Below are positions 23,530-52,826 of a stretch of 64,000 nt of DNA, one piece after another; the first letter of the stretch is position 1; each line of letters opens with the position of its first letter. This DNA comes from a methane-oxidizing endosymbiont of Gigantopelta aegis (GTDB lineage Bacteria; Pseudomonadota; Gammaproteobacteria; Methylococcales; Methylomonadaceae). The stretch spans positions 1,313,831 through 1,377,830 of the forward strand of contig NZ_JAEHGD010000001.1 in the NCBI RefSeq assembly GCF_016097405.1, read 5' to 3'. Below the pieces are notes generated by a model. The model worked only from the letters and a program-made list of their open reading frames with translations, was not told the DNA's origin and searched no databases. The position numbers were made by a program, and so were the translations under genes.

Positions 23530-23561
23530 AGGATTCGAGCCTCTGGCCTCGGCCTTCGGAG
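23530..23561 (-). other. tRNA-Arg 3' half remnant (candidate left attachment site)
   Basis: These 32 bases match 52636-52667 of the intact tRNA-Arg(CCG) at 30 of 32 positions and in the same orientation, covering anticodon loop, variable loop and most of the T arm. The acceptor stem is not present. Because the matching 5' half sits alone at 52786-52826, this is probably the displaced 3' half of the original host tRNA gene, now decayed. Confidence 0.7.
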
Positions 23562-24151: not shown

Positions 24152-24153
24152 TA

Positions 24154-24739: not shown

Positions 24740-24744
24740 TGATA

Positions 24745-24762: not shown

Positions 24763-24953
24763 TGACAAAGGCACAACTCTCTTGATGAAAACTATCAGGT
24801 GATATTGGATGTCCAAACTTAGGAAGTTATTGGGTTGACAGTCGCTTTTTTGTTAACTCGTAAGAGCAATTAACTTTTAGAATCAGCAACAAAGAAAAAT
24901 ACTACTGATCAGTAATTTCTAGGAACAGTATCCAATATTTCGCTATAATATTA

Positions 24954-25460: not shown

Positions 25461-25490
25461 TACTGCTCAGTAACTTATTTTCCTGTCATC

Positions 25491-28001: not shown

Positions 28002-28071
28002 GGGGCGTGTCCTCAGTATCAATCCTTTTATACTCTTACATTATTTGTCTGATTGACGAGGTACATGCCCC
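28002..28071 (+). promoter_or_regulatory. Structured leader upstream of the AAA ATPase gene
   Basis: GGGGCGTGTCCTC (28002-28014) can pair with GAGGTACATGCCCC (28058-28071) through 13 pairs with one bulge and one G-U. It encloses a smaller AGTAT/ATACT hairpin, and ends 6 nt before the AGGAGG ribosome-binding site (28078-28083). It matches no riboswitch I know, and may be an attenuator or an RNA-binding site. Confidence 0.4.
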
Positions 28072-28087
28072 AAATACAGGAGGGACC

Positions 28088-29191
28088 ATGTACGCACATA
28101 AACCAAACCGACATTTCAGAAACCTAATCCAACAACGCCTGTTAGCGCCGCAATCACTTCCGGTAGATAATCAGCCGGAGGTAGAACCGGATTGGGATGA
28201 TAGTTTGATCAAGGTCTTTGATGTGGACAGCATGCAAGACATGATCGATAAACATCCTAGCCGCAGTAATCTGGCCCGGAATCATAGCCGTTATCTGGAA
28301 TACCTAGGCGATACCGAAGGCTATCTGCAACAGGCGGTGGTGCCCGATGACATCTTCGCACAACTGGACCAGTTAGCGCATGATTTTCCCAATTTCCAGG
28401 AGGTGGTCGCCTTTTACCGCGAACAACTGGCCTTAATGGTTTACAGCGGCACCCAGGTTTTTGCGGCAACGCCTTTACTGCTGACCGGGCCGGCCGGAGT
28501 CGGCAAAACCGCGTTTTGTCATCGTTTGGCGCAGATCATACAGACCCATTTTGCCCTGATCTCATTCTCCTCTATGAGCGCTGGCTTCGTGTTGGTGGGG
28601 ATGTCCTCAAACTGGGCAGAGGGCAAACCTGGAAAAGTCGTTGAAGCGCTGGCTATAGGCCATTACGCCAATCCACTCATGGTACTGGATGAAATTGACA
28701 AAGCCGACGGTGATCCGCGTTACGACCCATTAGGCAGCCTTTATCAGCTGTTAGAATCGGAAACGGCGGCGCACTTTATCGATGAAGGACTGGAAGTTCC
28801 GGCTGATTGTTCGCACATCGTCTGGGTGGCGACCGCCAATGATTTGCAGCGGATACCGGAACCGATTGTCTCCCGTTTTGTGGTCATTCCTATCAAAGCG
28901 CCGAACCCGGAACAAATGCGCTCTGTATTGGCCTCGATTTATCGACAAGTCAGGAAAAAGCATCGCTGGGGAGTTCGTTTTACCGAGCAGTTATCCGAAC
29001 AACTGGTCGCCAAAATCACCACCAGTGAAATGGCCCCACGCCTGATCCAAAGGGAGCTGATCCGGGCCTGTGGTAGGGCCAGTCTGCGTCATAAGGATAA
29101 TCCGGACAACATTCAGCTCCAGACCGATGATTTTTATATCCAAAACCCGTGGATGGAAAAAGAACAACGGCCCATTGGATTTGTATATTAA
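28088..29191 (+). CDS. AAA ATPase, Lon-like/MoxR-like, without a protease domain
   Basis: This 367-residue protein starts at ATG 28088 (MYAHKPNRHF), chosen for the AGGAGG 5 bp upstream. It has Walker A GPAGVGKTAF (about residue 134), Walker B MVLDEIDKADGD (about 197), sensor 1 WVATANDLQRIPEPIVSRF and an arginine finger, as in Lon and related AAA+ ATPases. The Lon protease catalytic Ser-Lys domain is absent. An N-terminal region of about 100 residues is unassigned. The gene is followed at once by metallophosphoesterase genes, so it may serve in an island-encoded stress or defence function, which is inference. Confidence 0.8.
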   Translation: MYAHKPNRHFRNLIQQRLLAPQSLPVDNQPEVEPDWDDSLIKVFDVDSMQDMIDKHPSRSNLARNHSRYLEYLGDTEGYLQQAVVPDDIFAQLDQLAHDFPNFQEVVAFYREQLALMVYSGTQVFAATPLLLTGPAGVGKTAFCHRLAQIIQTHFALISFSSMSAGFVLVGMSSNWAEGKPGKVVEALAIGHYANPLMVLDEIDKADGDPRYDPLGSLYQLLESETAAHFIDEGLEVPADCSHIVWVATANDLQRIPEPIVSRFVVIPIKAPNPEQMRSVLASIYRQVRKKHRWGVRFTEQLSEQLVAKITTSEMAPRLIQRELIRACGRASLRHKDNPDNIQLQTDDFYIQNPWMEKEQRPIGFVY

Positions 29192-31001: not shown

Positions 31002-32504
31002 GTAACCGTTCACAACACTTGCCAAACCACCCAAAAAATCAGAAAATTCGTGTATGAGCAAACTCCCACTGGATTTCACCCAACCGCCACCTTTGCCTGA
31101 GACATTAGAAGAGTCTCACCAGGTGATTTTGACGTTGTGGGAAGCGATTAGGCAACTCCAAATCTGGAAAGAGGAACTGGAGGAACAATTAAATAATGGT
31201 TCCGACAATTCCTCAGCACCGCCCTCACAAGACAGCCCTAAAAACGCGCGGAACGCCACCGCAAAACCCCGACGGGGCGTAAAAAGGGGCGCAGACGGGC
31301 CACAAAAAGCACGAACGGACGTTATTGCCCGAAGACCAGGTCGACCACATCAAGCGCTACTATCCGCATGCAGTCTGTGGTTGTGGTGGAACAGTCCAGA
31401 TAGATCGTTACCAACGCCATCAAGTTTTTGATTTACCTGAAGTGCGCTATGAAGTCACCGAACATCAGTGCTACGCAGGTTGTTGTCAACGCTGTGGACA
31501 GCACCATAAAGCCCATCTGCCCGACGCCGTTCCTGCCGGCCAAATGGGGCCGGGTCTGATTGCCTGGATCAACCTGATAAATGGCCGTTACCACCTGACC
31601 TTAAGACAGATTGAAAGTCTGCTCCAGGAACAATGGGGCCTGACCTTCAGTTTAGGAGCTATCAGCCAAAGCCAGAAAAAGCTCAATGACTGGCTGGCCC
31701 CCGTCTATCAACAAATCGGTGAAGCGGTTCGTGCCGCGAATCTCGGCTATGCCGATGAAACCCGACACTACCGGAATCGCAGCACCTACTGGCTCTGGTC
31801 CTTATCCACCGACCAGGCCGCCTACTTTCTGACCCACTATTCGCGCGGTAAAGGCGCGGCCAACGCTTTACTCGGCAACTTCAATGGCGTCTTAGTCACC
31901 GACCGCCATGGTGCTTACAACGACTATGCAGCCAATAAACACCAATATTGCTGGGCGCATATCATCCGTAACTTGGAAAAAATAGCCCAACGCCGGGGAC
32001 AAGCAGGCAAAGACGGTCAAAAATTGCTGAGGCTGGCTCGATTAGGGGTACGATGCGCCAAACGCTGGCAACAAAGCGACTATCAAAGCCAGCATTATCG
32101 ACAGCGACTGGAAAAGCTCCGTCAACGCCTCAAAACCCAACTGGAACAGAGCGCACTCATCCATGGAAAAACCAAAACCGGCAACAGCTGCCGCAAACTG
32201 CTAAAGGATTTTCCAAGGCTCTGGACCTTTCTGGACCATCCCGGTGTGCCGCTGACCAACAATGCCGCGGAGAGGTCGTTGCGCCCTTATGTTATCTGGC
32301 GGAAAATCAGTTTTTCAGTCAATCACACCGCGGCGATCAGTTTCGGCCGATGATCTTGTCCGTGATCGAGACCTGTAGACGGTTAGGGCTTAATCTGTAT
32401 CAAACCCTCAGAACGATTTGCACTCAGGGTCTGACAGATGGCCAAGTCTCTTACCGCTTACCTATCCCTGAGCAGCAAGCGGTTATAAGGGTGTGAACGG
32501 TTAC
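31002..32504 (+). mobile_element. IS66-family element, copy 1
   Basis: The ends are GTAACCGTTCACA (31002) and TGTGAACGGTTAC (to 32504). A single TnpC-type transposase gene lies inside without TnpA/TnpB helpers, as in the ISBst12 subgroup. The 8-bp flanks GAATGTTA and GCAAGATA differ, so there is no target duplication and the element sits at a rearrangement junction: to its right an 843-residue recombinase is missing its start. Confidence 0.92.
31054..32496 (+). pseudogene. IS66 transposase (TnpC), two frameshifts
   Basis: The leucine-zipper-like N-terminus (QLQIWKEELEEQLNNGSDNSS) shifts frame at AAAAAGGGG near 31285, continues as QTGHKKHERTLLPEDQVDHI with the zinc-finger-like CGCGG and CCQRCGQ motifs, then the catalytic core YADETRH, VTDRHGAYN and NNAAERSLRPYVIWRK. 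A T lost near 32313 causes a second shift. The first shift is shared with copy 2; the second is not. Confidence 0.88.
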
Positions 32505-35100
32505 GCAAGATAAAGGAAAACAACTACGCCAGGAAAATGTATTACGCAGGCGTTGGTTTCCTGATTCAGTGACAGAATTACTATTGCTACGCTGGCAACA
32601 TCAGCAACTGGGCGAGTTTCCAGTTCCTGAAGGTATAAACCCTGACAAGGCAGAGACCTATTGTCAGTATTTAATCAATGCATTCTTGGGATCTGTTGGC
32701 TTTACTGAAAAAATCATTCCGACTCGAATGCTTATCGATGGCGCTGTTATAGCGGCTGGTCTTGAAATACCTGCCTTTCTGGTAAATTTTGCAAGCGGAA
32801 AAATACAAACAACATCGCTCCCTCCTCAAGCCTGGCAACGGCTTTACAGCAATTGTCGAGTTGGCCAGAGCAAACAGGAATTAAAACTCGAACAAACAGA
32901 ATTCAATTTGCAACTGGGTGAGCAATTGAATGGCAATGACAGCGTCATAAAGCGTTATGATCAATATCGACTCTATAAAAAACTCCGCAAACAACTGACC
33001 GATAAACGCGAGGATAAAAAACGATCTCATGCGCAATCGATCAAAATAATCGAGTCTTTTATGGATGAACATAAAGATCAAGTTGCCCCGCCGTTATATT
33101 ATTTATGTCAATGGGCTATAGAAATGTATCGCAATGGTAGTTATACCAAAGCGAGATTAGCAGTCAGTACAGTACCTAAATACCTGGGGCAGCTACAAGA
33201 ATTGGTTAACTTTGTTGGCAGTGAAGATTTGCTAACGCTTGATGCTGAAGAATTACTTGAAATTTACCAAGGTCTGGTGAATCGTAGTAAAACCCTCAAG
33301 GCGAAAGCCTATAAAGCCGGTCGTATTAAAGAATTCCACCACTTCTTGTTAAAATGCGGCTATTCCGGTCGTTTGAACTTAAACGAGCTGGAAGGTGTAA
33401 AAGCGCACGGAACAGCAGTTGATGCCAATTATCTTAATGAAACGGCATACCAGGCAACCTTAGTAGAACTAAACCGAGTAGATGCCAGACATTCACGCAT
33501 CGTGACCATTCGACGATTGATAACCATGCTGGGGTATCGTTGTGGTCTGCGCCGGACTGAAGCCTGGAAACTGAGACTCTGCGATATCCAAATTAGCCAT
33601 TATCCTGTGTTGTTGATACGGGCCAGCCAATACAAAACGGTCAAATCCCCACAATCCATACGACAACTTCCCTTAAAATCATTATTGACTCAACAGGAAC
33701 TGGATGAGTTTCTGCATTGGGTCGAACAAAGGCGATTGGAGCAAGGCTTAGATGATTTTGCAACCGATTCCAGCTTTCTATTTTGCCATGAGCATAATGG
33801 ATTAAGTCTCATTAAAGAAGATTTGATTTTTCCGGTGATACAAATGGTACTACGGGCCGTTACCGGTGACGATAGTATTCGCTATCATCATCTACGGCAT
33901 AGTTGTGGAAATAACCTGATGCTGCGATTTCAAAAGATTACCTGGTCTGAGTTAGCATTAGAGAAGATAGAGCCTGTTGAATCAGAAACGAACAATTTAT
34001 TCGGTTTGAGTGACCAATATCCATCACGAAAACATTTATTTCAAGTAAGCGCCTTGCTCGGTCATGCCAGTCCGGATATTACGCTGAGAAACTATATTCA
34101 TTGTTGCGATTATTTGCTTCGGCATTATTTAAACCAGGCTCATGACGATACTCTGCCAGTGACATCAATTACAGCTATTAGTGGTATTGGCCGGGAATCC
34201 TTATATAAAAGTAGACAGCGAAAATACCCAGAACTTTCCGTTCTGCAAATTGCTAAACATCAGTTGCGAGAGAAAACTCGGTTAGTAAAAGATGAAAACA
34301 GTGCGAAACAGAATGAGCCGATTGACTGGCCAGAAGAACTATTACAACTGCCTCAATTGCATTTATTGGAAGAACCTCCCATTTCCATTATGCATCAGTT
34401 GATCGAAAATTATGACCCTGAACAGAAGGATGCTCGTTATTGGGCGGGAAAAACCTGTTATTCTGAATACCAAATACAAAAATGGCTTGATGCAGCATTA
34501 TTTTTAGCACACATGAAAACCGGCAAGGGAGTGCCTAGACACATTCGTCCACAATGGTGGGGATTAGCGGATGCAGAACAAAAAAATGCTATCCTGATTC
34601 AAGAAACACGACAACAGCCACGTTGCATGCCCAAACCACATAATCAACAAGATGTTAAAGATGCCCAGTTAGCTTTACAACACTTGAAAACAATGAGAAA
34701 CAGTACCCCTGAACTGACTAGGTGGGGTATTCAGTATTACCTGGAGACAAATGTTTCATCCCATTCCCACTTGAGAATGAAAACACTCGATGATGCAAAA
34801 CGTTTTAAAGATTTTATTTTAGCGCTGGGTTTCACTAAAAAAAGAATCCATTGCCAACTAAAACCTCAAACCCGTCCAGGGAGCCTGCCAAAACATAAAC
34901 AGGTTGAATTCTGGGCAAAAGAACTATCCATTCAAACGAATCAGATTACCGTGAGAACGCCTATTGAAAAACGTGGTTCAGATTTTGGATCATTAAGTAT
35001 GCTTGTTGTACATGAAAATGGTCATGCATCATATGGTATTCGCTATGCGCTTTATATGACCGGCATTTTAATGTTGGTGGCAAATGAAATAAGTCTATAA
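32505..35100 (+). pseudogene. Large tyrosine recombinase, N-terminus removed by IS66 copy 1
   Basis: The frame is open from the IS66 edge, with a GTG at 32569 giving 843 residues. The tyrosine-recombinase catalytic residues are all present: CGLRRTEAWKLRL (Arg I, about 325), YHHLRHSCGNN (His-x2-Arg, about 440), and LLGHASPDITLRNYIH (His and nucleophile Tyr, about 497-510). About 330 further residues follow the catalytic Tyr, with an aromatic/basic segment (GVPRHIRPQWWGLADA); such an extension is unusual for integrases. Large recombinases of this type occur in multi-recombinase island modules, but membership is inference. The upstream in-frame codons (RRRWFPDS) show that the true start is lost. 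Confidence 0.8.
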
Positions 35101-35366: not shown

Positions 35367-35419
35367 AGCTGATAATCAGCGTTAAATATTTTTCTAATAG
35401 TCGGCGCTAAAATCGATTA

Positions 35420-35925
35420 GGCGCAAGCCAGAGCGATAGAGCCTTCAAAATTTCGTTTGAGTTTGTCATATCGCGTGGCGATCGCTCTGAAATGCTTAAG
35501 TCTTGCAAACACATTTTCAACGAGATGGCGATATTTGTAGAGACACCAATCCATTTCATCATTTCCCGAGTTGAATTCTTTTTTCTTGGGATAACAGGAA
35601 CAGCCCCTTTGTCTTTAATTTGAAGACGTAATGCTTCACTGTCATAGCCTCTGTCAGCAACTATATAGTCACCTTTTGGGAGCTCTGCAACTAATTTCGG
35701 TGCTTCTTTACAGTCATGAACTTCGCCGCCTGTCACTGAGAAATGAATAGGAAGACCACAGGCATCAACGGCCATATGAATTTTACTGGTGTTCCCGGCG
35801 ACAGATTTCCCTATCGCTGTTTCTTGTTCACAGGCCGCACCACTACTATGCTGATGTGCTTTCACAATACTCCCATCAATAAATTCCCATTCCAGGTCTG
35901 GATCAACAACCAAGGCGTCAGCCCC
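35420..35925 (-). mobile_element. IS427-group-like fragment, copy E (deleted at both ends)
   Basis: Reading on the minus strand it starts GGGGCTG and jumps to ACGCCTTGG in the transposase gene (about residue 79), keeps the DDE region, and ends at CGCAAGCC without the terminal 35 bp. TA remains on each side (35418-35419, 35926-35927). It is not autonomous. Confidence 0.88.
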
Positions 35926-36131: not shown

Positions 36132-36319
36132 ATGGCTAGTGTCGATGAAATTGAAGCCTGTTTCGGGATGAAGCGGGATACGGTCTAAAAAATGGATCAG
36201 CAAACAAACCAGCCAATCCACAAAATCGGTCGTCTCTGGAAATTCAGGAAAAAATTGACGAGTGGATGCGCAAAGACGGAACAAGTGAGACTAGTGGTGA
36301 GTATGACGGAAAAGAATAA
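36132..36319 (+). pseudogene. Excisionase/MerR-like helix-turn-helix protein, broken
   Basis: The pieces SVDEIEACFGMKRDTV, a stop at 36186, then QPIHKIGRLWKFR and, after a shift, KIDEWMRKDGTSETSGEYDG together spell an excisionase-type (HTH_17) DNA-binding protein of about 62 residues. There is one disruption around 36186 and a frameshift in the A-run near 36253. Its end overlaps the brxA start. Such small DNA-binding genes often stand at the head of defence operons. Confidence 0.7.
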
Positions 36320-37094
36320 ACAATTGACACGCTTCGGATTCAGTTTCGAACGAGGCGGCGCTCATACTTCCCGCACAATGATGCTTGAAGAGCTGAAATC
36401 GCTTTTATCCTATGTAAACCGTGTTGATGCTGTAAAACAAGATTACCTGCATGCGATAGACGATGAAAACTGCCTTGGTAAACGATCAGCCAAAACGCGT
36501 ATTCTGACTTACCGACACCTTGTGGATCTTTATTCACTTGATCCGTCTAACGTTCTTTTTCGAGCTTTATTATATTTTTGGGATCGTGATACGTCAGGAC
36601 AACCCTTACTTGCATTACTTTGCACTTATGCACGCGATCCTGTTTTTCGCTCTACCGCGTCTTTTATTTTAAAGTTCCCGGAAGGCGCAACTGTCTCACG
36701 TGAAGCTCTTGAGGAATATATTGATGACATTGAGCCAGGTCGTTTCAGTAAAGCAACGTTAAAATCCACAGCACAGAATATTAACTCGACCTGGACAAAA
36801 TCCGGGCATTTGCAAGGCCGTACCAGAAAGATTCGTACACCGGCTATTCCAACTGTGGGAAGTGTGTCTTATGCGTTGCTACTCGGTTACTTGTCCGGTG
36901 TACGCGGGCAATCACTCTTTCGAACAGAATACATCGAATTGCTTGACTGTTCTTTCGATAAAGCCATCGAGTTTGCTGAAGAAGCATCACGAAAAGGCTG
37001 GATAGTATTCAAACGCGTTGGTAATGTGATTGAAGTTCTTTTCCCAAACCTGATAAATCAGGAAGAAATGGAGTGGCTTCGTGAGCAAAGTTAA
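36303..37094 (+). CDS. brxA: BREX protein BrxA (DUF1819)
   Basis: This 263-residue protein begins at ATG 36303 (MTEKNKQLTRFGFSFERGGA), chosen because the frame upstream is the broken helix-turn-helix gene. The segments TRILTYRHLVDLYSLDP, FSKATLKSTAQNINSTW and ALLLGYLSGVRGQSLF are typical of the NusB-like DUF1819/BrxA family, the first gene of type 1 BREX phage-defence clusters. It overlaps brxB by 14 bp. It is the only BREX core gene here that still looks complete. Confidence 0.88.
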   Translation: MTEKNKQLTRFGFSFERGGAHTSRTMMLEELKSLLSYVNRVDAVKQDYLHAIDDENCLGKRSAKTRILTYRHLVDLYSLDPSNVLFRALLYFWDRDTSGQPLLALLCTYARDPVFRSTASFILKFPEGATVSREALEEYIDDIEPGRFSKATLKSTAQNINSTWTKSGHLQGRTRKIRTPAIPTVGSVSYALLLGYLSGVRGQSLFRTEYIELLDCSFDKAIEFAEEASRKGWIVFKRVGNVIEVLFPNLINQEEMEWLREQS

Positions 37095-37634
37095 GCGACT
37101 TATTCAATCTTATAGTAAACATATTGCTGTGCCATGGAGAGATGACGCAGCCGCAGCACAGCGGGTTATTTTTTTGCGTCTACAACGAAAATGAAGAACG
37201 CTGGCTGCGCGCCAGAATTGATGAATTTGAAATAGCCACCCGACAAGCTGAACATGATTGGGCAATTTTCGATTTAACGGATACATTTGCTGTCTGGTTA
37301 TCTTCAGGGCGTTATGCAAAAAGTTATTTTCAAAAACCCCATTTACTACACACACTTTTACCTAAATACCTGACATTTTTAACTAAAGAATTTGAAAACT
37401 TTCTCCAGAAAAACAAGGTAGATGAAAATACTGTGGTTGCCATTAAAGGCGTGGGATCATTATTTGGATTTCTGAAAGTAAAAGATGTTGTCGATAAGTT
37501 TGCACCGATGGTTAAAGGAAGACTTGTCGTCTTTTTTCCCGGGCAGCTTCGAAAATAATAATTACAGACTACTGGACGGTTATGACGGGTGGAACTATCT
37601 CGCCATACCTATCACTGCGAATAAGGAATATTGA
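37081..37634 (+). pseudogene. brxB: BREX protein BrxB (DUF1788), two frameshifts
   Basis: From GTG 37081 the frame reads KRLIQSYSKHIAVPWRDDAA and shifts in a seven-T run near 37170. The main frame continues NEERWLRARIDEFEIATRQA, HDWAIFDLTDTFAVWL and KGVGSLFGFLKVKDVVDKFA, the conserved DUF1788 core. It shifts again near 37545 and ends NNYRLLDGYDGWNYLAIPI to the stop at 37632-37634. With both shifts corrected the length (about 184) and ends fit BrxB. As it stands, the product is broken. Confidence 0.88.
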
Positions 37635-37644
37635 ACGGGGGTTA

Positions 37645-37759
37645 ATGATGAATAATCGAGATATTTACCAAACAGATCCAGCTACCCGTAAGTTGGTTAA
37701 TGAAGGTGTCGCCAGTGTTAATGACGAAAAAAAAACCAGTCAGGCGCTGGCCGTACTCC
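37645..37759 (+). pseudogene. brxC: BrxC, first 38 codons, cut by IS3-family copy 1
   Basis: ATG 37645 follows CGGGGG and reads NNRDIYQTDPATRKLVNEGV and on to SQALAVL, the BrxC N-terminus, then meets the IS. The continuation RYELETFVCDGQYQKG lies on the minus strand from 46387. CCGTACTCC (37751-37759) is repeated there as GGAGTACGG (46379-46387), the target duplication of the original insertion. Confidence 0.92.
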
Positions 37760-37764
37760 CCCTG

Positions 37765-39389
37765 TGTCAGACTAGTTGTCGCCTCTATTAAAACAGAGGA
37801 ATAAAACGATGTCCCAACGTTATAGTAAAGCATTTAAAGAACAAGCCATATCAAAAGTATTGCAACGTGGTGATAAAACGATACAGTGTATCGCTGATGA
37901 ATTGAATGTAAACTTGTTTACCCTTAAAAACTGGCTAAAGAAACCTCGTACAACGCCTATGACAGACACCCCGATGAATAAACGCCCAGCTGACTGGTCA
38001 ATGGCAGAGCGTTTTGCTTTATTAATGGAAAGCGTCGCTTTAGAAGGTGAGGCGTTAAATGCCTTTTGCCGTCAACACGGTATATTTCCGCATCATCTTG
38101 ATGTTTGGAAAGACGTTTATCAAGAAAACCGACAAAGCAGAACAATCAGGAAAATCCCGATCAGACAAGTCTTTACGGGATGAGATAAAACAACTGGAAA
38201 AAGAATTAAATCGCAAGGAAAAGGCCTTGGCAGAAGCCGCCGCCTTATTGGTGCTCAAAAAAGTGCCGAGCGTTCTGGGAGGAAAAGGCGTGATGATTTC
38301 TCTTGCAGAACGCGAACAATGGTTGGAATATTTTGATGAAGCCGTCGGCCTGGGCGCAAGAAAATCAAAAGCCGCCGAGATCATCGGCATCAGCTTACGC
38401 ACTTTGCAGCGTTGGCAAAAACTGAAACGCTATCCGTCGATGGCCGGACACAGCGTCAGTTTACCCCGAGCCATAAGCTCAGTGACGAGGAACGAGCCGA
38501 GATACTTGCTATCGCTAATTCGGACGAATTTAAAGACTGTACGCCGCATCAAATCGTGCCGATATTGGCCGAGCGTGGTCAATATATTGCTTCAGAATCC
38601 AGTTTTTATCGAGTTTTAAGGGAGGCCAATCAATTATCACACCGGCATACCAGTCGGACACCTAGCTCGCGCAGCAAACCGAAAGCCTTGACCGCAACAT
38701 CGCCCAATCAGATTTACACTTGGGATATCACCTATCTGGCAACGCAAGTCAAAGGACAGTTCTTTTATCTGTACCTGTTTATGGATATCTTTAGCCGTAA
38801 AATTGTCGGCTGGCAGGTCTACCAGGAAGAAAGCAGTCAGTATGCGGCCGATGTCATCACCGATATCTGCCAACGTGAATGCATTCAACGCGAGCAGGTG
38901 GTTTTGCATTCTGACAACGGTAGCCCAATGAAAGGCGCAACCATGCTGGCAACCTTGCAAAAACTGGGGGTAGCGACTTCACTCAGTCGGCCAGCGGTGA
39001 GTAATGACAATCCTTATTCCGAATCCCTATTCAGGACGCTTAAATATACGCCTAAATATCCTTCACAGCCCTTTGAGACAATAGCGGCTGCCAGGGAATG
39101 GGTCGCAGGCTTTTGGACTGGTACAATCACCAGCATCGGCATAGTGGTATTCAATTTGTCACACCGGCCCAACGCCATGAGGCTAAAGATCAGGCGATAT
39201 TAATCCAGCGTAAAGCGGTCTATGAGGCCGCTAAAGCTCAAAACCCCAAACGATGGAGTCAACATACCCGAAACTGGGATTGGCAATCTGACGTCTGCCT
39301 AAATCCTGATAAACCGAATGATTCGCGCTCAGTCAACAAGCCCAATATCATTCATTAATTTTCAACTTTTGGCGACAGTTACTTTGACA
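37765..39389 (+). mobile_element. IS3-family element, copy 1
   Basis: The ends are TGTCAGACTAGTTGTCGCC (37765) and the complement of TGTCAAAGTAACTGTCGCC (to 39389). Copy 2 lies inverted at 46392-48020. Both copies share CCCTG outside one end and TTTA outside the other, so the element may extend by those bases. The left flank is brxC and the right flank is pglX, so this copy is a recombinant of two insertions. Confidence 0.92.
37809..39358 (+). pseudogene. IS3-family transposase of copy 1 (orfA/orfB, frameshifted)
   Basis: OrfA starts MSQRYSKAFKEQAISKVLQ (helix-turn-helix, then a coiled coil). Compared with copy 2 it lacks AG near 38115 and one C near 38257. OrfB contains the rve core YTWDITYL, VVLHSDNGSPMKG and NPYSESLFRTLKY, and lacks one G near 39114, which truncates the C-terminus. 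Not functional alone. Confidence 0.85.
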
Positions 39390-41513
39390 TTTACCGAGAG
39401 CGGCAAGGGTACCTTTCTCTTGTTCCCAACGAATAACTTGTTCTCTACCGGAAAACCTAGCAATCTCGTTAATTGCAGTTTGAACTGGCTCCCAAATCCA
39501 GGAAAATTTTTCAACTTCCCAGTGCATCTTGAAAAATTGGTGCAAATCACCAGCGTGCAAGCCGCTTCTAGCCTCAGCAAATTCATTAAGCAAGGCAGCA
39601 TCAGACGCCAAATTAGTAATAAAACGCATGTCTGGATTGCCGCGTATATCAGCCACACTAACTCTATCTACAGAGCACCCAATGGCTGAATCCATGTTTT
39701 CTTGAAGTGACTTGTTAGCTGAACAATCCGACAGTGAAAATGAATCTCCTATCTTTTCGTCGACTGATGAGATCAATAATGCAGGGTTTGCTCGAATTGG
39801 CGTAGAAAATGCATTCCACCCAAGGCGCAACACAAAGAGCGGCCGATGTTTTTCAAGATAATTTTTTCTATACTGTGCGTACGGGCCAAGGTAAAGCCAC
39901 TCACCAAGAGAGACTAGCGCATAACTTCCAAAAGGCTTTATCCACTCACGAATCCTCTCAATAAACGCCATCGCCAAATCGTATTTGCCAACGGTGTACC
40001 ACTTTTCAATAAACTCAAGGAGTCTTGGATGATGCTTTGAAACACCCAAATAGGGAACGTTTGTTTCAACCAAATCGTATTTGTGGGAAAGCAGAAACGC
40101 CGCCTTTACTATCCCTTTTGCAACAATGCCAATTTCTGACCGTTCATCATCCTTTTCACCCGCCAACGCCTTTGTCAGAAGCGGCCCAACCTCTTCCCAC
40201 TTCAGTTCAAACAGCGATCCCTTGCCCAGACTGGCCTCCGGGTTAATAAGGCTACCGAGCACCGGCGCATCCTTAAATTGTTTGTAGAGCTCTTCCAGTG
40301 CCAGGCGCAGGTTGGTGTCGTCGCCAGCAAGAGCGAGCCACTCTTCCTTCTTGGCGCTGATTGCCAATCCAGAGCAGGCCACATTCAGTTCCGGCAATAC
40401 GCGATAGCCACCCGCATCGGGGTATTTCCAGGCGGTAAGCGCCAGGGCGAAGGCGGCCAGTTCCACGCAGCGTTGATCCAGTTCTAGGCCGTGAATATTC
40501 TCCTTCAATACCGCATCCACCGCTTCACGGGCAGACAGATCCTCCAGATCCATCCGCATCGGAACCAGCATCAGAAAGGCAGCGACCAGAAAGTGTCCGG
40601 AGCCGCAGCAGGGATCGAGGGTTTTCAAGTCGGAGAGCTGTTCCGGCCAGCCATCGAAGGTTCCCGCAGCCGGTGTCCAGGTACCATCTTCTTGCTGTAC
40701 AAAGCGCAGGTAATCCAGCGGTACACCCGGTATGGATGCCTTGCTGCGCAGTTCCTCTTCGCTGCAGGCGTTTTTCAGGTCCGATTCGGTGAGACGACGT
40801 GCCGCCCACCACGCCCCCAGGGAGTTATCCAACAGGAAGCTGACCATGTACGGTTCGGTGAAAAGCTGGGTAACGGCGGGCAGTTCCCTGCTACCTATCT
40901 TCACTTCGGAAGCGTTGACCTCATCTTTCTTTTTGGCCTGCCAGAATTGGTAGACCCAGCCCAGCGAGTCGGAAGCAGTAAAGACCTCAAGGGGCAGATC
41001 GGACACCAGGCGTTCCAGTTTTTGCTGATGCTCCGGTGGCAAAGTCAGTTGAAAGACCGGGGAGTCGAGACGGAAGATCTGCGGCAGCATGCGAGCGGCG
41101 AACCTAGCGGCTAGTTCCCAGCCATTGGCCGCATCTTCGTCGGCAGCCAAGTCTTCGCACTCTTCCAGGGTGATAGCTACCGGATCATCCGGGTCCGGGT
41201 ACATGAGCAGGTTATTCTCGGCCAGGAAGCGGGCAAACAACATGCGGTGCCAATGCTCGTAGGCCACTTCTTCCACCAGCCTCTCTATCTCTTGCTCTCC
41301 CCTGTCGTTACGCAAGTCACCCAGTTGACGACCATGAACACGTAACTTGCGGCGCAGTTCACGATCCTGTTCGCTTAAATGGGTAAACGGGGTGGCTTCA
41401 CCTACACCGAGTTGTTCCAGCGCAGCGCGGGCAGCCTCCTCGGCAGTGTCGCGGGCTTCCTTGATGGTTCGTTCGAGTTGATTGCGTAGTAATTTTTCAA
41501 GAGGCTGCATCAT
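39390..41513 (-). pseudogene. pglX: BREX adenine methyltransferase PglX, C-terminus removed by IS3-family copy 1
   Basis: From ATG 41513, about 708 residues remain of a protein usually near 1200. The N-terminal region is followed by the AdoMet motif DPCCGSGHFLVAAF (about residue 302) and the catalytic-site motif as TNVPYLG (about 483) in place of the usual NPPY. It should methylate adenine in the BREX recognition site. The start overlaps the preceding nuclease-like gene, with GGAGGA as ribosome-binding site. The frame runs into the IS after EKGTLAALGK, so the specificity half is lost. No pglZ or brxL is found in the window. Confidence 0.88.
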
Positions 41514-43049: not shown

Positions 43050-46000
43050 CTATTGAATCACCACCGGACCTTGTTGCAGGGCGGCTTTTAACTGTTGTTT
43101 AACCTCTTCAGTCCAAGCCTCAATATCCTCATCCGTTTTGAGAGTACGACGAGGCACCTGAATAAACTGTGCCTTGGGTTCGCAAAGTTCTGCTGCACCC
43201 ATTGCGACATTATCAAAGCGGGCAGGCATAGCGGCAACACGATCGGCAAACATAGACAGAGCGCAGTTGTCGAGGGTTGAGAGTACATCAGCAGTGCTCT
43301 CAAGCTTTACCCCGGGTCGATCCTTAAATGTTAGTCGTTGTTCCGCTAACAACTGATTGCGCTGTTCAGGTTCCAGTTGCTGCCAGTTTGAATCATCTTC
43401 TAAACGTTCCATGCCTTGTTTGTGACTTGCCTCATATTGCTGATCCAGGCGATTGAGTTCATCCCGTAGTCGTTGAGTCAGGTTGGCAATGAGTGGTGTA
43501 ATCAAGTCGGGTTCTTCGAGCAGTTGGCGCTGTTGCTCAATGGTTTTGACTTGAGCAAGAATCACCTCTGCATCTGCAATACCGGTGGCGTGAGCCGCCA
43601 GGCGTGTTAAGACTTGCCAATTTGGCCAGCATTTGCTGATACGCTCGGCAAGAATAGTCCAGACATCAATATGGTTGCCAAGCTCCTCGCGCCGGTTGTA
43701 CAGGGACAGCAGTTGTTCATTGCCTGCGGTAAGGCGAATTTCATCGAGAAAAGTCGTTTCTGGCTGCTCTGGTTTAGGGGCTTCTCCGCCCGCTTGATTG
43801 GCGAGTTCGATCATTTTTTGCAGGAACTGCGGTACATAACTCAATTCTTCACCTTGTTTGACGGTTAGCCCAACTTTTTGTAACAGTTTACGAATCTGAA
43901 TCCGTTGAGCCGTGGTAACAGTAGCGGATTCTACCTTGAACATCACCTTGCCAATGGATTTACGTTCCAGTTCTTTCGGGTCCATGGTTTGACCACGCTC
44001 GTCCTGGGCTCGAATGAGTCCAGCTATTAACAGCGCTTGCAGACCACCATCGACGGCATCACGAGACCAGCCAAAAGGCGCTGATTCAAACTGGGCGCGA
44101 ATATCCGCACCCTTCTTGCCACCGGCAATGAAGCCCAGAATGGCTTTGCACACTGGATTCCTGACTGGTTCACCTTCATCGCCAACGGCCTTCAGCGCGT
44201 CAGGCGCGCCTTTTTTTGCTTTTTCATAGACTTTTGACCAACCGCTATGATCGGCGATATGAAACTGCGGGTAGAGCCGCTGTAACGAATTGCCTGCGGC
44301 TTCCAAAATCATATCCTGCAAATCATTGCCAAGAATTTCGTTACCGCCACCCTGGAAAACTCGGCTACCTGAGAATGCTTCTTCCAACAATTCGCGAATT
44401 TTCCCTTCAGCGGTTTGCTTGGTAGTCTCCATGGCTGCACGGGCTTCAGTACCTTCCGGCGTATTGGGGACGCCGCGTTTATCCAGGGTGGCGCTGGCCG
44501 CTTTGTAGTCGATCAGATGATGGCGCAGGTCATCGGCAGAGCGTTTTGGAATGAACACAAAAACCGTGGGTGATTGATTTCCAGCCTGGCGTGCATCGGC
44601 CCGCACGGAGTTTTCATCGATACTCCATCCATCGCGCACCCAGACGTATATGCGCTGATTGGCATCAGCCGGCAGGTTGGCATCAAACAGTGGGTAGATG
44701 TCACGCGTGACTTTTGAGTTACCCTGGGTCAGAGAGAGCTTGCGGACCATCTCACCGAATTTCTTGCGGATGCGGTCGTCACGCTCTGCTTCGATGCGAT
44801 GCGCTTCGTTAGAGAGCGCGGATCGTTGGCTCAAGAACTCATCGAGCCAGGCAGCGCTTTCCTCGGTCTGAATACGGTATTCATCCCCGACCTTCATCAG
44901 CAGTTCGCATTTGTCGAGTAGCCCCGGCAGTTTGCTGCGAAGTGCGCCGGAACCCTGTGACAGGTCTTCAACCAGCAGGTCGGCCAGGGTATCTATTGTG
45001 GCGTGGATACCGATTTCATGATTACTACTGGCGAGTTTGTTTATGAGGAATACCAGACCACAGGCACGCGCCATGAGTTTTTCGTCATCAGTACCCTTGC
45101 TCCAGCTCATGGTTTTTTCGTGCACCTTGCGAGGCAGAATGCGTGACTGTAACAATTTATCTGCGGAATCAAAGTAGAGATAGTCTGCTGGTACGACATT
45201 TCCCAGAGGGTCATTTAAATTCGTTTGGATGACCTTGTGAATCATACTGAGCTGGTTACGGAGTTGACTATCCGTACCGGTTTGGTCAAGTACACGTAAG
45301 GTGTTTTCCCAGAAGCGGCGACGAACTGGAAGAATAGGATAATCCTGTGGAAAATAGGGAATATCATCCTGCTGATGACCAATGGTGGTGCCAGCAAGGT
45401 GCCTGGAAATCTCGCCCAGGTTGGTTTGCATGATTTGTTCAATGGGCGCTTTTGCTTCAGGTTTTTTGGCAAGAATAACCTGCCGTATGACGGCATCGAC
45501 ATCGGCATCGGATAGTTCGACGCGAATGGTAAAACGGCCTTCCAGCTTTTTCAGGTTACTGGTGCCTGTTACGGCTGTCTGGCCTGTACCGATAAATAGC
45601 AGTTTGCCGCCAATATTCTTGCTACAGGCTTCGACTACTTCCTGGACATCAATCGAGCGTTGGCTGTCTTCTCCAATGTATTGTTGAACCTCATCGAGTA
45701 CCACAAGGGTCAACGGAAATTTGCCGTCATGGGTAAGCGCTTGACGAATGGTTTTGAGCATATCGTCGCTGGAGACATCCTGGACATAGGGATACAGATT
45801 GTTCAGGGTTTCGACACAGGAGGCAGGTGATGTGAATAGATTGGGTTTGGCCTTAACCAGGGCCTCATGCAAACCTTCGGCAACATAGAAATTGTCCAGC
45901 TCTTCTTCCCAGTCAAACCCACTTTGTTCTACCTGGCTACGGACTTGGTTCTCGATGCCTTCAGATTTAAGCCACATGACAAAACGGGCTACAGGGTACT

Positions 46001-46387
46001 GCTCTGGAAGCCCGACTGATTTAAAAATAATCCGTAAAAGAGCCAGGCGAACACTGCCGCTCGCACCAGCGCCCAGTGTGCCCGATGCGGCATGTAAACC
46101 ACCATGTCGTTTAGCCTGTGTGCTGAGTTCTTTTAAATGATCCTGAATATTTTGTGGCAAATTAGCGATGCCGCGAGCTGTAGCGCCATCTTCAAAAACC
46201 GTATCAACCCAAAGCGCACGGAGCATTTTCACCAGGTGTGATTTACCAGAACCGTAGAATCCACTTACCCAAACGGCAGGCTGTTGCGCCTGGTCTATAT
46301 TTTTTAAATAGGTTTCAAGGATGTGCTCCATTCCTTTTTGGTATTGACCATCACAAACGAAGGTTTCTAATTCATAACGGAGTACGG
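43050..46387 (-). pseudogene. brxC: BrxC, remainder of the gene, inverted relative to its first codons
   Basis: From the IS edge the frame reads RYELETFVCDGQYQKG, then Walker A VWVSGFYGSGKSHLVKML and Walker B LVVLDEVQQYIGEDSQRS, and continues about 1100 residues to the stop at 43050. This is the large P-loop ATPase of BREX (DUF6079-containing). Its first 38 codons are at 37645-37759 on the other strand. The open frame extends into IS DNA (to 46463) and could give a hybrid N-terminus, but without the native start and promoter. Apart from the split, no frameshift is visible. Confidence 0.92.
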
Positions 46388-46391
46388 TAAA

Positions 46392-48020
46392 TGTCAAAGT
46401 AACTGTCGCCAAAAGTTGAAAATTAATGAATGATATTGGGCTTGTTGACTGAGCGCGAATCATTCGGTTTATCAGGATTTAGGCAGACGTCAGATTGCCA
46501 ATCCCAGTTTCGGGTATGTTGACTCCATCGTTTGGGGTTTTGAGCTTTAGCGGCCTCATAGACCGCTTTACGCTGGATTAATATCGCCTGATCTTTAGCC
46601 TCATGGCGTTGGGCCGGTGTGACAAATTGAATACCACTATGCCGATGCTGGTGATTGTACCAGTCCACAAAGCCTGCGACCCATTCCCTGGCAGCCGCTA
46701 TTGTCTCAAAGGGCTGTGAAGGATATTTAGGCGTATATTTAAGCGTCCTGAATAGGGATTCGGAATAAGGATTGTCATTACTCACCGCTGGCCGACTGAG
46801 TGAAGTCGCTACCCCCAGTTTTTGCAAGGTTGCCAGCATGGTTGCGCCTTTCATTGGGCTACCGTTGTCAGAATGCAAAACCACCTGCTCGCGTTGAATG
46901 CATTCACGTTGGCAGATATCGGTGATGACATCGGCCGCATACTGACTGCTTTCTTCCTGGTAGACCTGCCAGCCGACAATTTTACGGCTAAAGATATCCA
47001 TAAACAGGTACAGATAAAAGAACTGTCCTTTGACTTGCGTTGCCAGATAGGTGATATCCCAAGTGTAAATCTGATTGGGCGATGTTGCGGTCAAGGCTTT
47101 CGGTTTGCTGCGCGAGCTAGGTGTCCGACTGGTATGCCGGTGTGATAATTGATTGGCCTCCCTTAAAACTCGATAAAAACTGGATTCTGAAGCAATATAT
47201 TGACCACGCTCGGCCAATATCGGCACGATTTGATGCGGCGTACAGTCTTTAAATTCGTCCGAATTAGCGATAGCAAGTATCTCGGCTCGTTCCTCGTCAC
47301 TGAGCTTATGGCTCGGGGTAAACTGACGCTGTGTCCGGCCATCGACGGATAGCGTTTCAGTTTTTGCCAACGCTGCAAAGTGCGTAAGCTGATGCCGATG
47401 ATCTCGGCGGCTTTTGATTTTCTTGCGCCCAGGCCGACGGCTTCATCAAAATATTCCAACCATTGTTCGCGTTCTGCAAGAGAAATCATCACGCCTTTTC
47501 CTCCCAGAACGCTCGGCACTTTTTTGGAGCACCAATAAGGCGGCGGCTTCTGCCAAGGCCTTTTCCTTGCGATTTAATTCTTTTTCCAGTTGTTTTATCT
47601 CATCCCGTAAAGACTTGTCTGATCGGGATTTTCCTGATTGTTCTGCTTTGTCGGTTTTCTTGATAAACTCGTCTTTCCAAACATCAAGATGATGCGGAAA
47701 TATACCGTGTTGACGGCAAAAGGCATTTAACGCCTCACCTTCTAAAGCGACGCTTTCCATTAATAAAGCAAAACGCTCTGCCATTGACCAGTCAGCTGGG
47801 CGTTTATTCATCGGGGTGTCTGTCATAGGCGTTGTACGAGGTTTCTTTAGCCAGTTTTTAAGGGTAAACAAGTTTACATTCAATTCATCAGCGATACACT
47901 GTATCGTTTTATCACCACGTTGCAATACTTTTGATATGGCTTGTTCTTTAAATGCTTTACTATAACGTTGGGACATCGTTTTATTCCTCTGTTTTAATAG
48001 AGGCGACAACTAGTCTGACA
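46392..48020 (-). mobile_element. IS3-family element, copy 2 (inverted relative to copy 1)
   Basis: It has the same ends as copy 1, in opposite orientation. On the brxC side the flank is TAAA then the duplicated GGAGTACGG. On the other side it cuts an HD/TraI_2-like gene. The transposase reads better than in copy 1. The two inverted copies bound the 7-kb segment carrying brxC to pglX. Confidence 0.92.
46423..47976 (-). CDS. IS3-family transposase of copy 2 (orfA and orfB frames)
   Basis: OrfA runs from ATG 47976 to 47446. A second frame (47519-47163) reads SLAEREQWLEYFDEAVGLGA, and a third (47370-46423, 315 residues) carries the complete rve core with YTWDITYL, HSDNGSPMKG and SESLFRTLKY (D, D, E) and an intact C-terminus. 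Two frame changes are needed. The A-run near 47523 could be a programmed -1 site, as usual in IS3. The change near 47365 is also in copy 1 and may be an old mutation. Confidence 0.75.
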
Positions 48021-48741
48021 CAGGGGCATCCGATTGGGACATCGTTTCAATCTTACCCAAGTCATGCAGCAAGGCCGCTACAAGGGTTAATTGCGCTTCA
48101 CGCTTTGACAGCGTTGAGAAGGCAATAGACTCCAGCCATTCGGCGCATTCCACACTGTGTAGCAACAACCCTCCGGGCATACTGTGATGGTGATTAAAAC
48201 TCGCTGGTAGTGATATAAAAGGAGCGGCAATGTCTATTCGCGAAAACAACGTCGTCAGCAGCTTCTGCAAGCGCTTATCCTGCAAACGGGCGATCAACGC
48301 CAGTAATCGCAACAAAGCGTGAGGCTTGGGTGTTTTGTCAAACAGCGTTTGCAAATAGCTCAACGAATAGTCCGATTCGATCGGTTGCCAATAACGCAAT
48401 AATCGCAGCGAATGCAGGGGTGCCGAAGACTTTGTGTTTCCCTTTAGCGGTCTTTGTAGCAATTCTGTTTCAACATATAGCACCGACTCCATCGCCGGTA
48501 ACGACACCTTGTCTGATGCGGGAAGCCACACGCGCATACGGTGCTGATGAGGTAATTGTAACGTCATGATATGGCCGTTTTGCTGTGCCGAATGCTTGGT
48601 CAACACCGACTCAAGCTGACAGACTTGGCTGACTCGATTTGTCGCATTTTGACCTGGGTCAGCATGTGTCATACTGTGTTCTGTGACAGCCTGGGTCACC
48701 GTAGAAAATACCGCGTCATGTTGTGTCATAGTCTGTCTCAT
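48021..48741 (-). pseudogene. HD-domain protein resembling TraI_2 relaxase-type proteins, C-terminus cut by IS3-family copy 2
   Basis: From ATG 48741, 240 residues precede the IS. The segment FNHHHSMPGGLLLHSVECAEW and LVAALLHDLGKIETM give the H...HD metal motif of the HD superfamily, in the form seen in TraI_2 (MOBH-related) proteins of integrative elements. An N-terminal region of about 130 residues is unassigned. Its start overlaps the end of the upstream small gene. It suggests that conjugative or mobilisation DNA was part of the island. Confidence 0.65.
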
Positions 48742-49228: not shown

Positions 49229-50735
49229 GTAACCGTTCACAACACTTGCCAAACCACCCAAAAAATCAGAAAATTCGTGTATGAGCAAACTCCCACTGGA
49301 TTTCACCCAACCGCCACCTTTGCCTGAGACATTAGAAGAGTCTCACCAGGTGATTTTGACGTTGTGGGAAGCGATTAGGCAACTCCAAATCTGGAAAGAG
49401 GAACTGGAGGAACAATTAAATAATGGTTCCGACAATTCCTCAGCACCGCCCTCACAAGACAGCCCTAAAAACGCGCGGAACGCCACCGCAAAACCCCGAC
49501 GGGGCGTAAAAAGGGGCGCAGACGGGCCACAAAAAGCACGAACGGACGTTATTGCCCGAAGACCAGGTCGACCACATCAAGCGCTACTATCCGCATGCAG
49601 TCTGTGGTTGTGGTGGAACAGTCCAGATAGATCGTTACCAACGCCATCAAGTTTTTGATTTACCTGAAGTGCGCTATGAAGTCACCGAACATCAGTGCTA
49701 CGCAGGTTGTTGTCAACGCTGTGGACAGCACCATAAAGCCCATCTGCCCGACGCCGTTCCTGCCGGCCAAATGGGGCCGGGTCTGATTGCCTGGATCAAC
49801 CTGATAAATGGCCGTTACCACCTGACCTTAAGACAGATTGAAAGTCTGCTCCAGGAACAATGGGGCCTGACCTTCAGTTTAGGAGCTATCAGCCAAAGCC
49901 AGAAAAAGCTCAATGACTGGCTGGCCCCGTCTATCTATCAACAAATCGGTGAAGCGGTTCGTGCCGCGAATCTCGGCTATGCCGATGAAACCCGACACTA
50001 CCGGAATCGCAGCACCTACTGGCTCTGGTCCTTATCCACCGACCAGGCCGCCTACTTTCTGACCCACTATTCGCGCGGTAAAGGCGCGGCCAACGCTTTA
50101 CTCGGCAACTTCAATGGCGTCTTAGTCACCGACCGCCATGGTGCTTACAACGACTATGCAGCCAATAAACACCAATATTGCTGGGCGCATATCATCCGTA
50201 ACTTGGAAAAAATAGCCCAACGCCGGGGACAAGCAGGCAAAGACGGTCAAAAATTGCTGAGGCTGGCTCGATTAGGGGTACGATGCGCCAAACGCTGGCA
50301 ACAAAGCGACTATCAAAGCCAGCATTATCGACAGCGACTGGAAAAGCTCCGTCAACGCCTCAAAACCCAACTGGAACAGAGCGCACTCATCCATGGAAAA
50401 ACCAAAACCGGCAACAGCTGCCGCAAACTGCTAAAGGATTTTCCAAGGCTCTGGACCTTTCTGGACCATCCCGGTGTGCCGCTGACCAACAATGCCGCGG
50501 AGAGGTCGTTGCGCCCTTATGTTATCTGGCGGAAAATCAGTTTTTTCAGTCAATCACACCGCGGCGATCAGTTTCGGCCGATGATCTTGTCCGTGATCGA
50601 GACCTGTAGACGGTTAGGGCTTAATCTGTATCAAACCCTCAGAACGATTTGCACTCAGGGTCTGACAGATGGCCAAGTCTCTTACCGCTTACCTATCCCT
50701 GAGCAGCAAGCGGTTATAAGGGTGTGAACGGTTAC
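49229..50735 (+). mobile_element. IS66-family element, copy 2, truncating the island integrase
   Basis: Same ends and content as copy 1 (31002-32504). The flanks GTTGGTTG and GCACCGTA are not a duplication, so this copy too sits at a junction. Its right end cuts the integrase gene. Compared with copy 1 it has 3 extra bases near 49935 and keeps the T missing from copy 1 near 32313. Confidence 0.92.
49281..50727 (+). CDS. IS66 transposase (TnpC), one frame change
   Basis: The first frame (49281-49658) gives the leucine-rich N-terminus. The second (from the TTG at 49552, 391 residues) is complete to VSYRLPIPEQQAVIRV, with the D, D, E residues in YADETRH, VTDRHGAYN and NNAAERSLRPY. Joining them needs a +1 step at AAAAAGGGG near 49512, exactly as in copy 1. 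That could be an inherited mutation or a recoding site. Confidence 0.8.
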
Positions 50736-51402
50736 GCACCGTATAATAAGCTTTGAAATCAGCCCGAACATTGGCCAGAATTAGGTTTACTTCATCCAGC
50801 GAAAATGGATCGATATGTGACTTTGGTTTTTTTAGCGGTTTAATTCCTCGGTAAGGTGACGTAAAATCAAACCTGTCAGCCGCTTCATTAAGAACCATCC
50901 GGAGAATCTTCATATACTTGTTGATGTATTCTGCAGATAACTGTTTGCCATTTTTGCGCGTCACTTTGGCGAGGGAAGCGCGAAATTTCAAAATATCTGC
51001 TTTAGTGATGTGGCTGACCTCCATTTCCCCGAACCATTCCATAATCCGGTCATTCAGCATCCGCTTCACCGTCACTTGATGCGAATGTCGCCAACCCACC
51101 TGCATTTCATCAAACCATTCGGCGGCAAAGTCCTTAAACTTGGGTTTGGCATCGCCGCTTAGAATTCGCTTGCGGGTTTCCAGTTGATCAAACTTAGCAA
51201 CCATCGAACTATTAGGAAAATAGGTACGATAGTTGAAGATTCCTAACGTGATTTCCGCATCAATTTTATCCATCACCTTCTGTAAACGGTTACGATTGAT
51301 TTTGGTATCTTCCAATGTGGTTTGTTCGCGGCAACGGATGTTTTGATATTTGAAGTCAAAGAACAATTTACCGGTTTCTCGACGTACTCGGATACTACCC
51401 AT
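50736..51402 (-). pseudogene. int: Phage-type integrase, N-terminal part, truncated by IS66 copy 2
   Basis: ATG 51402 opens GSIRVRRETGKLFFDFKYQN, an arm-binding domain of the DUF3596 type, followed by the core-binding SAM-like domain (FKDFAAEWFDEMQVGW, HITKADILKFRASLAKVTRK). After about 222 residues the IS66 end replaces the catalytic domain. The gene lies about 1.2 kb from tRNA-Arg, facing away from it, with an excisionase-like gene just upstream, the usual layout of a tRNA-integrated island. The island can no longer excise with its own integrase. Confidence 0.88.
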
Positions 51403-51625
51403 GGCAGAAACCTCCTTTGCTTAATGGAATAGCAAAATCGGACTCGGATTGAGTCATATCTGTTTCGATATGTTCCCAGATAAAAAGGATTTTGCGCCCA
51501 CCAAATGGACGAATATAGTGGCGACCTTCCAGCAATACACTGTCCTTCAATACATTGCGGATCGTACGTGGGTCATACTTGATTTTTTCTGATAATTCGG
51601 CAGTGGTTAAATAAGTTAAAGACAT
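51395..51625 (-). CDS. Excisionase-like small DNA-binding protein
   Basis: This 76-residue protein has a predicted helix-turn-helix YLTTAELSEKIKYDPRTIRN and a wing-like HYIRPFGGRKILFIWEHI, as in Xis/AlpA-type proteins. It overlaps the integrase start by 8 bp. Its likely promoter lies among the CTGYAG repeats, divergent from the XRE regulator. It would direct excision. Confidence 0.75.
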   Translation of the reverse strand: MSLTYLTTAELSEKIKYDPRTIRNVLKDSVLLEGRHYIRPFGGRKILFIWEHIETDMTQSESDFAIPLSKGGFCHG

Positions 51626-52622: not shown

Positions 52623-52699
52623 TGGCGCGCCCGAGAGGATTCGAACCTCTGGCCTCGGCCTCCGGAGGGCCGCGCTCTATCCAGCTGAGCTACGGGCGC
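52623..52699 (-). tRNA. tRNA-Arg (anticodon CCG), intact, CCA encoded
   Basis: On the minus strand the acceptor stem GCGCCCG/CGGGCGC, D arm (GCTC/GAGC), anticodon stem CGGCC/GGCCG with loop CTCCGGA (anticodon CCG), T arm AGAGG/CCTCT with TTCGAAT, discriminator G and CCA are all present. A TATAAT box (52718-52723 on the other strand) lies about 19 bp upstream. This copy lies inside the two halves of a second, broken tRNA-Arg. Confidence 0.96.
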
Positions 52700-52785: not shown

Positions 52786-52826
52786 CCTCCGGAGGGCCGC
52801 GCTCTATCCAGCTGAGCTACGGGCGC
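52786..52826 (-). other. tRNA-Arg 5' half remnant (candidate right attachment site)
   Basis: These 41 bases are identical to 52659-52699, the 5' half of the intact tRNA-Arg from acceptor stem through the anticodon loop. The 3' half does not follow; instead there is unrelated DNA with two copies of GATGACTGT. A TATAAT box (52841-52846 complement) lies 15 bp upstream. It looks like the host tRNA gene cut within its anticodon loop. Confidence 0.9.

Follow-up and report, generated by a model that had tools for sequence, protein, structure and literature searches.

A truncated long tyrosine recombinase from a putative three-gene module in a tRNA-associated BREX island

The open reading frame that follows an IS66-family copy in the window (the whole stretch of 64,000 nucleotides analysed here, from a methane-oxidizing endosymbiont of Gigantopelta aegis) is, as judged from its sequence, a truncated copy of B, the catalytic long member of an operon referred to here as X-A-B. 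In our main reading, to which we assign a probability of roughly 0.5, X-A-B helps to insert or excise islands at tRNA genes, and the island in the window was crippled by a loss associated with IS66. Genomes and loci are cited below by working labels (G and L numbers) where they need to be told apart.

The truncated recombinase in the window

The frame is open from 32500 to 35100 on the forward strand (866 codons), and its first start, a GTG at 32569, would give a protein of 843 residues. Residue numbers of the B relic were counted from position 32500. The relic comprises the following features:

32505..35100, forward strand: B relic, a long tyrosine recombinase reduced to its C-terminal ~78%, in a frame open from 32500
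33550..34095, forward strand: catalytic stretch of B, Arg351 to Tyr532, from direct reading and alignment columns
34096..35097, forward strand: C-terminal tail of B, 334 residues in length after Tyr532

The relic matched PF00589 (E 5.5e-9; 36.5 bits against a gathering score of 27.1) and was the single match of such kind in its own genome. It had been predicted that all catalytic residues are visible, and the complete active site of a tyrosine recombinase was indeed found, consisting of Arg351 (CGLRRTE), Lys382, His463 and Arg466 (YHHLRHS), His522 and Tyr532 (LGHASPDITLRNYIH). The Arg-Lys-His-Arg-His/Trp-Tyr set of the tyrosine recombinase superfamily is present within the Phage_integrase domain of B, and across the 35 aligned family members the catalytic columns contained R in 35, K in 35, H in 32 (Y 2, G 1), R in 35, H in 34 (Q 1) and Y in 35.

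The missing N-terminus had been attributed to IS66, and in substance this holds: IS66 has its right inverted repeat ending at 32504, and the match to full-length relatives sets in within a few bases of that point, at about the next codons. Judged against two full-length close relatives, ~235 N-terminal residues have been lost. A tblastn comparison of these two relatives and protein A with the whole window returned no further piece, only two chance-level matches (E 0.42 and 0.59).

The search for full-length homologues and their neighbours, as the original prediction had proposed, yielded these two close relatives and the X-A-B operon. A match to B was found in 7 of 301 genomes of the order, two of them close. 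The full-length relative in G125 is an ORF of 1,111 aa with 62% identity to window B, and that in G195 an ORF of 1,121 aa with 58% identity; full-length B proteins measure about 1,000-1,200 aa. The G195 locus, on contig JABFRC010000103.1 of a Methylococcaceae MAG, was the one locus returned when the genome contigs were searched with a 3-row alignment, and the window protein alone as query returned no related locus from such contigs. Viral contigs searched with four queries gave no match and the B tail had no match in phages, and a prophage origin of B was rejected on these results. A profile of 1,066 positions and function not known, phrog_33072, matched B of G294 (E 6e-17) and G412 (E 3e-4) (L014/L055) and is possibly a phage-derived relative of B. 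A tRNA-Arg island of the same plan as that in the window, with two consecutive integrase-like genes, was seen in G152 (L086 5287-9581; G152:C1:771758-771901), where B is a remnant with two stops.

The X-A-B operon and protein A

The operon is ordered as small X, recombinase-like A and long B. As a separate gene, A encodes about 740-910 aa and lies upstream of B, while X, defined by position, is the small ORF upstream of A in most loci examined. A profile of A built from 11 rows was searched in 398 genomes of the phylum, which gave 26 matches in 19 genomes and none in the genome of the window; this spread among the sampled genomes indicates that the module is common. Twenty of the 26 matches were taken as loci and six were left out. 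In 20/20 of these loci B was next to A or fused to it: the two genes are adjacent or overlapping on one strand in 17, and 3 have a fusion. A further A-B fusion of 1,784 aa (L015) was read by eye. The suggestion that the frame belongs to a multi-recombinase module of an island, and that its partners were lost, is borne out: A and X, present in relatives, are missing here. In L057 (G355), brxA lies at 309-1148, a few kb from the A-B pair, as in the window.

The A proteins of G195 and G294 had no match at E <= 1 in Pfam and NCBIfam. A nonetheless appears recombinase-like by its motifs and by profile cross-matches in fused ORFs. In an alignment of 32 proteins, in which one row was gapped in three pocket columns, the pocket was fully conserved: R 31/31, K 31/31, hairpin R 31/31, R 32/32 and H 32/32. 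The tyrosine column held Y in 9, F in 8, H in 5, A in 2, T in 2, and one each of N, Q, I, L, R and gap; A as a family therefore falls outside the tyrosine recombinase superfamily as defined by a Tyr together with the Arg-Lys-Arg-His pocket. The residue after this column was S in 28, A in 3 and N in 1. The spacing from GH to the Tyr site was nearly gap-free in the first 12 A proteins, with the remoter rows aligned less surely.

A bolder reading, which we hold to be unlikely, is that X-A-B represents a distinct split tyrosine recombinase. B would give the nucleophile, and A, Tyr-less with a full phosphate pocket (GH-x10-[YFH]-S, Ser in 28/32), would act either as an obligate non-cleaving reader of the tRNA anticodon-stem core or as a Ser-using enzyme, with the B tail coupling both.

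The C-terminal tail

About 330 residues had been predicted after the catalytic Tyr, and 334 were counted. The unusual length was thus confirmed for the relic; it is not universal in the family, in which 28 of 35 members continue for 269-456 residues after the Tyr and 7 of 35 for 15-68. The existence of these tail-less forms would agree with a tail that began as an independent gene and became part of the recombinase here when a stop codon was lost. The wide distribution of the tail speaks against this, since it is present in members down to about 20% identity and the tails of three close and nine distant members were profile-aligned over 287 columns (hhalign probability 99.6%, E 1.7e-22, in a single comparison). 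A tail that is family-wide and homologous points to an old domain and not to a lost stop; a local fusion, the finding by which the original prediction would have been overturned, was rejected as next to impossible. On this sequence evidence, the tail is an old feature of the B family.

In a quick tree of B, four short-tail members were placed outside (97), and the short-tail pair G355/G544 was nested among long-tail members, which suggests that the tail was lost in this pair; many branches of the tree are long, and several around the short-tail members are weak.

Prediction of the tail structure, also proposed originally, gave no confident fold: AlphaFold2 with a 2-row alignment reached a mean pLDDT of 53.4 for the tail and 38.1 for the full relic. 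The last ~145 residues (about 716-859, alpha/beta) nevertheless showed the same order of elements in both models, namely helix, helix, strand, helix, strand, helix, strand, strand, helix. An HTH-like stretch in mid-tail, at about residues 622-675, is weakly indicated from three sides. VIA-align gave a best Z of 5.9 over 54 residues at 2.0 A to a POU/homeodomain-type HTH, a level that may mean a mere common arrangement. In Pfam, HTH_28 and HTH_Tnp_1 were each matched by 2 of 12 tails (best E 0.0059 and 0.015) and FdhE_N once (E 0.0011), while the window tail itself matched PF21716 only (E 0.23). The best match of the tail profile to PDB sequences was a homeobox protein (E 0.11). Foldseek against the PDB returned IspF-like matches for the predicted tail (best E 0.21), which were taken as chance, and a LAGLIDADG-like fold, guessed from the element pattern, was absent among the listed VIA-align rows.

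The window island

The island lies between two tRNA-derived ends; the features in and beside it are as follows:

23530..23561, reverse strand: degenerate direct repeat of the tRNA-Arg(CCG) 3' half, the other island end, 30/32 bases identical
28007..29191, forward strand: Lon-like AAA protein; by eye, a similar protein stands beside the G125-island integrase
31002..32504, forward strand: IS66-family copy 1, whose 13-bp end repeats (GTAACCGTTCACA) are perfect and whose 8-bp flanks differ, abutting truncated B
36192..37094, forward strand: brxA, island cargo
37124..37558, forward strand: brxB, incomplete (profile positions 29-158 of 184)
39348..41513, reverse strand: pglX, incomplete (profile positions 1-711 of 1125)
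43050..46463, reverse strand: brxC, near full length
48010..48741, reverse strand: HD / TraI_2-domain protein, a neighbour of the arm-type integrase in related islands
49229..50735, forward strand: IS66-family copy 2 with unlike 8-bp flanks, abutting a truncated integrase
50736..51411, reverse strand: arm-type tyrosine integrase (Arm-DNA-bind_2), N-terminal 226 aa, 90% identical to the G125-island integrase
52623..52699, reverse strand: tRNA-Arg(CCG), intact att site at the island end
52787..52826, reverse strand: another 5' half of tRNA-Arg, lying upstream of the intact gene, with the anticodon core CTCCGGAGG at its end

The repeat at 23530-23561 is in direct orientation with 52636-52667 and sits 9 bp past the end of an AcrB-type ORF. 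The site at 52787-52826 is of the type held by the X-A-B element in G195, and a 41-bp copy akin to it occurs upstream of tRNA-Arg in G125 (4806308-4806348). Insertion sequences and genes for AAA and phosphoesterase proteins also lie between the island ends. The island genes are flanked by several IS5-family copies or fragments that are nearly identical (23602-27279, 35407-35913), and a HEC-02-like pair (41513-43040) and insertion sequences lie within the damaged BREX region (36192-46463).

Each of the two IS66 copies borders on a truncated recombinase gene, and its flanks differ, whereas matching 8-bp flank repeats were observed at two other copies (L102 and L103). We infer from the missing flank repeats an IS66-mediated deletion beside these elements. 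The C-terminal part of the arm-type integrase was not found within the window. A further IS66 copy 214 kb away (L101) and window copy 2 have ~130 bp of flanking sequence in common (49099-49228), a sign of rearrangement through IS66. The BREX-bearing island, at about 23530-52699, is probably immobile.

tRNA sites at island ends in relatives

A tRNA fragment lay within 400 bp of the X/A end in 9 of 33 entries, at a distance of 176-394 bp. Five were among the 14 first-set entries (G125, G195, G412, Aeromonas and G294b), in which Apit and pDETAB13 are near-identical modules, and four among 19 second-set loci (L133, L134, L140 and L143), a count outside which L137 falls for want of upstream DNA and in which L152 has only 150 bp upstream. 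The remaining 24 of 33 entries, including the Acinetobacter plasmid loci, had no tRNA fragment near X. As background, 11 strict tRNA motifs occurred in 686,558 strand-bases, hits included, so that ~0.09 would be expected in 19 x 300 bases. In 8 of the 9 cases the fragment started at or beside the anticodon and pointed away from X; in the exception, G195, the anticodon core CTCCGGAGG was followed by a spacer and then by almost the whole tRNA-Arg. Arg, Asp and Val were named by ARAGORN, and His and Gly by eye. The nine intervals between X and the tRNA fragment shared the motifs TGTGAC (5 copies) and TGTGCC (3 copies), with 0 of 300 single-base shuffles as high, and nothing clear emerged from them.

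Direct repeats of the 3' part of a tRNA at both ends, the mark of a tRNA-targeted island, were found in the window, in Aeromonas and in G125. The island of Aeromonas caviae has 61-bp direct repeats at tRNA-Asp, 46.4 kb apart. NZ_AP026896.1 is labelled as plasmid pKAM479_3, yet at 4.94 Mb it has the size of a chromosome. The G125 island has 419-bp direct repeats at tRNA-Arg(CCG), 61.8 kb apart, a repeat too long for a simple att core, which suggests tandem islands. G976 has two tRNA-Val genes in tandem, with X-side DNA in place of the first gene's 5' half, and both genes were whole in 6/6 relatives examined as empty sites. The corresponding comparison for tRNA-Gly in G890 gave a match confined to the tRNA part. 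Given the proximity seen in 9/33 loci, the module can mark an island terminus, and its sequence context shows that X-A-B can be placed within a tRNA-inserted island, a few hundred bases from one of the junctions.

The arm-type integrase and the choice of site

Seven of the 15 first-set loci and 7 of the 20 second-set loci contained an arm-type integrase, in many cases accompanied by an HD/TraI_2 protein. Among these 14 loci it faced B in 11, ran in the same direction in 2 (L134, L139) and lay beyond X in 1 (L147). The window, G125, G152 and G412 have tRNA-Arg(CCG) and related integrases in common, with identities of 90% over 226 aa between the window and G125, 79% between G152 and G125, and 55% between G152 and G412. 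The B of G412 is remote despite the shared target, with 16% identity in the tail. Since the shared tRNA-Arg target follows the integrase while this B is remote, the comparison favours the arm-type integrase as the site chooser, and this is the main point against X-A-B as sole integrase.

The arm-type integrase might then move the islands alone, and X-A-B would be a separate module retained at the far end, for instance to resolve multimers or to capture cargo, or as an element nested in the island. We regard this as a serious possibility, somewhat less probable than our main reading. The target tracks the arm-type integrase more closely than it tracks B; the G152 integrase follows tRNA-Arg although B there is a remnant; and X-A-B occurs on Acinetobacter plasmids with no arm-type integrase in the flanks examined. 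These points are countered by the end of X, which lies 176-394 bp from fragments of several tRNA types, and by loci with no arm-type integrase in the ~19 kb examined of L140 and L143 or in 14 kb of L133, where it may lie farther away, as in G125.

Proposed role of X-A-B

According to the main reading, X, A and B would jointly help island insertion or excision. B would cut and rejoin DNA, A together with X would serve as its partner, mostly without cleaving, and read or hold the core of the anticodon stem in the tRNA site, and the B tail might supply extra DNA or partner contacts. In the window, the IS66-associated loss would have taken X, A and the start of B, and the second IS66 copy would have truncated the arm-type integrase of the island. 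By analogy, the role of X-A-B may be that of a multi-subunit integration/excision system, like GInts or Tsy and filed under neither. The original interpretation is, overall, partly supported.

Tyrosine recombinases are usually recognised as one short catalytic gene. The X-A-B family combines a very long catalytic partner that has an ancient tail with a large partner that automated libraries missed for the A proteins scanned. The module can serve to pinpoint where islands end in tRNA genes, and it offers a way to test how a recombinase-like protein that lacks the nucleophile joins in site choice. The broken X-A-B and integrase would further explain why the BREX defence island in this genome is likely fixed in place.

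Comparison with known multi-recombinase systems

Gamma-Mobile-Trio (GmtX/Y/Z) is a three-gene recombinase module on defence-rich islands. It was considered, together with GInt (ginABCD) and Tsy, as a described system to which X-A-B might belong and which our searches failed to recognise, a reading that we judge improbable. The general plan is the same, with several recombinase-like genes and a small protein. X-A-B has two, not three, recombinase-like genes, its A lacks the Tyr rather than the first Arg, and its target is a tRNA gene, not ssb/ABC genes or comM. The NCBIfam GmtY model NF040693 (441 positions) gave no match to window B, and 0/61 genomes scored over its curated cut-off, so that a GmtY identity for B was rejected. 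NCBIfam scans of A (G195, G294) and X (G125, G195, G294) returned no match named GmtZ or GmtX. A literature search that covered few subscription papers listed no recognised description of X-A-B.

Overlong recombinases and paired or trio arrangements (long TBSSRs, BIM, RIT) are on record (PMC3414803). The long TBSSRs of 611-828 aa reported there carry their extra part at the N-terminus, in contrast to the C-terminal extension of B, and RIT consists of three catalytic recombinases (PMC3414803); X-A-B does not contain three adjacent catalytic recombinases. The X-A-B-like locus of pDETAB13 has a 465-bp gene, a 780-aa hypothetical protein and a 1,066-aa site-specific integrase. Acinetobacter GR13 plasmids are reported to carry the core tyrosine recombinase tyr13 (PMC9455709). 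The plasmid pDETAB13 also has an arm-type integrase (31848-33047), and tyr13 could be either candidate gene.

GInts are islands in which a single operon at one end holds several recombinase-type genes and that of a small protein, comprising three integrases, one of them degenerate without its first Arg, and GinD; their cargo often includes restriction systems, their targets include ssb and an ABC-transporter gene among others, and their products are poorly conserved, at 24-40% or less (PMC5385486), which would make a missed relationship easier to understand. X-A-B resembles them in having a multi-recombinase operon with a small protein at an island end and one degenerate active site. It is set apart from that description (PMC5385486) by its two recombinase-like genes in place of three integrases and GinD, by the small ORF, which lies upstream where found and so comes first, by an A without Tyr and by the tRNA target.

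Tsy has two recombinases, both of which need activity, together with an HTH protein and a GIY-YIG nuclease, and targets comM, while Tn6022 has a TnsF relative without the catalytic part that selects the target (PMC10293859). The likeness of X-A-B to Tsy/TnsF lies in two tyrosine-recombinase-type proteins and an HTH protein (PMC10293859). It differs in that A keeps the whole phosphate pocket, which sets it apart from TnsF as described there (PMC10293859), and in its targets: those systems insert in comM and have a GIY-YIG nuclease and zinc-finger TnsF, and the targets seen for X-A-B are tRNA genes. By analogy, the nearest parallels to X-A-B are Tsy/TnsF (PMC10293859) and the GInts (PMC5385486).
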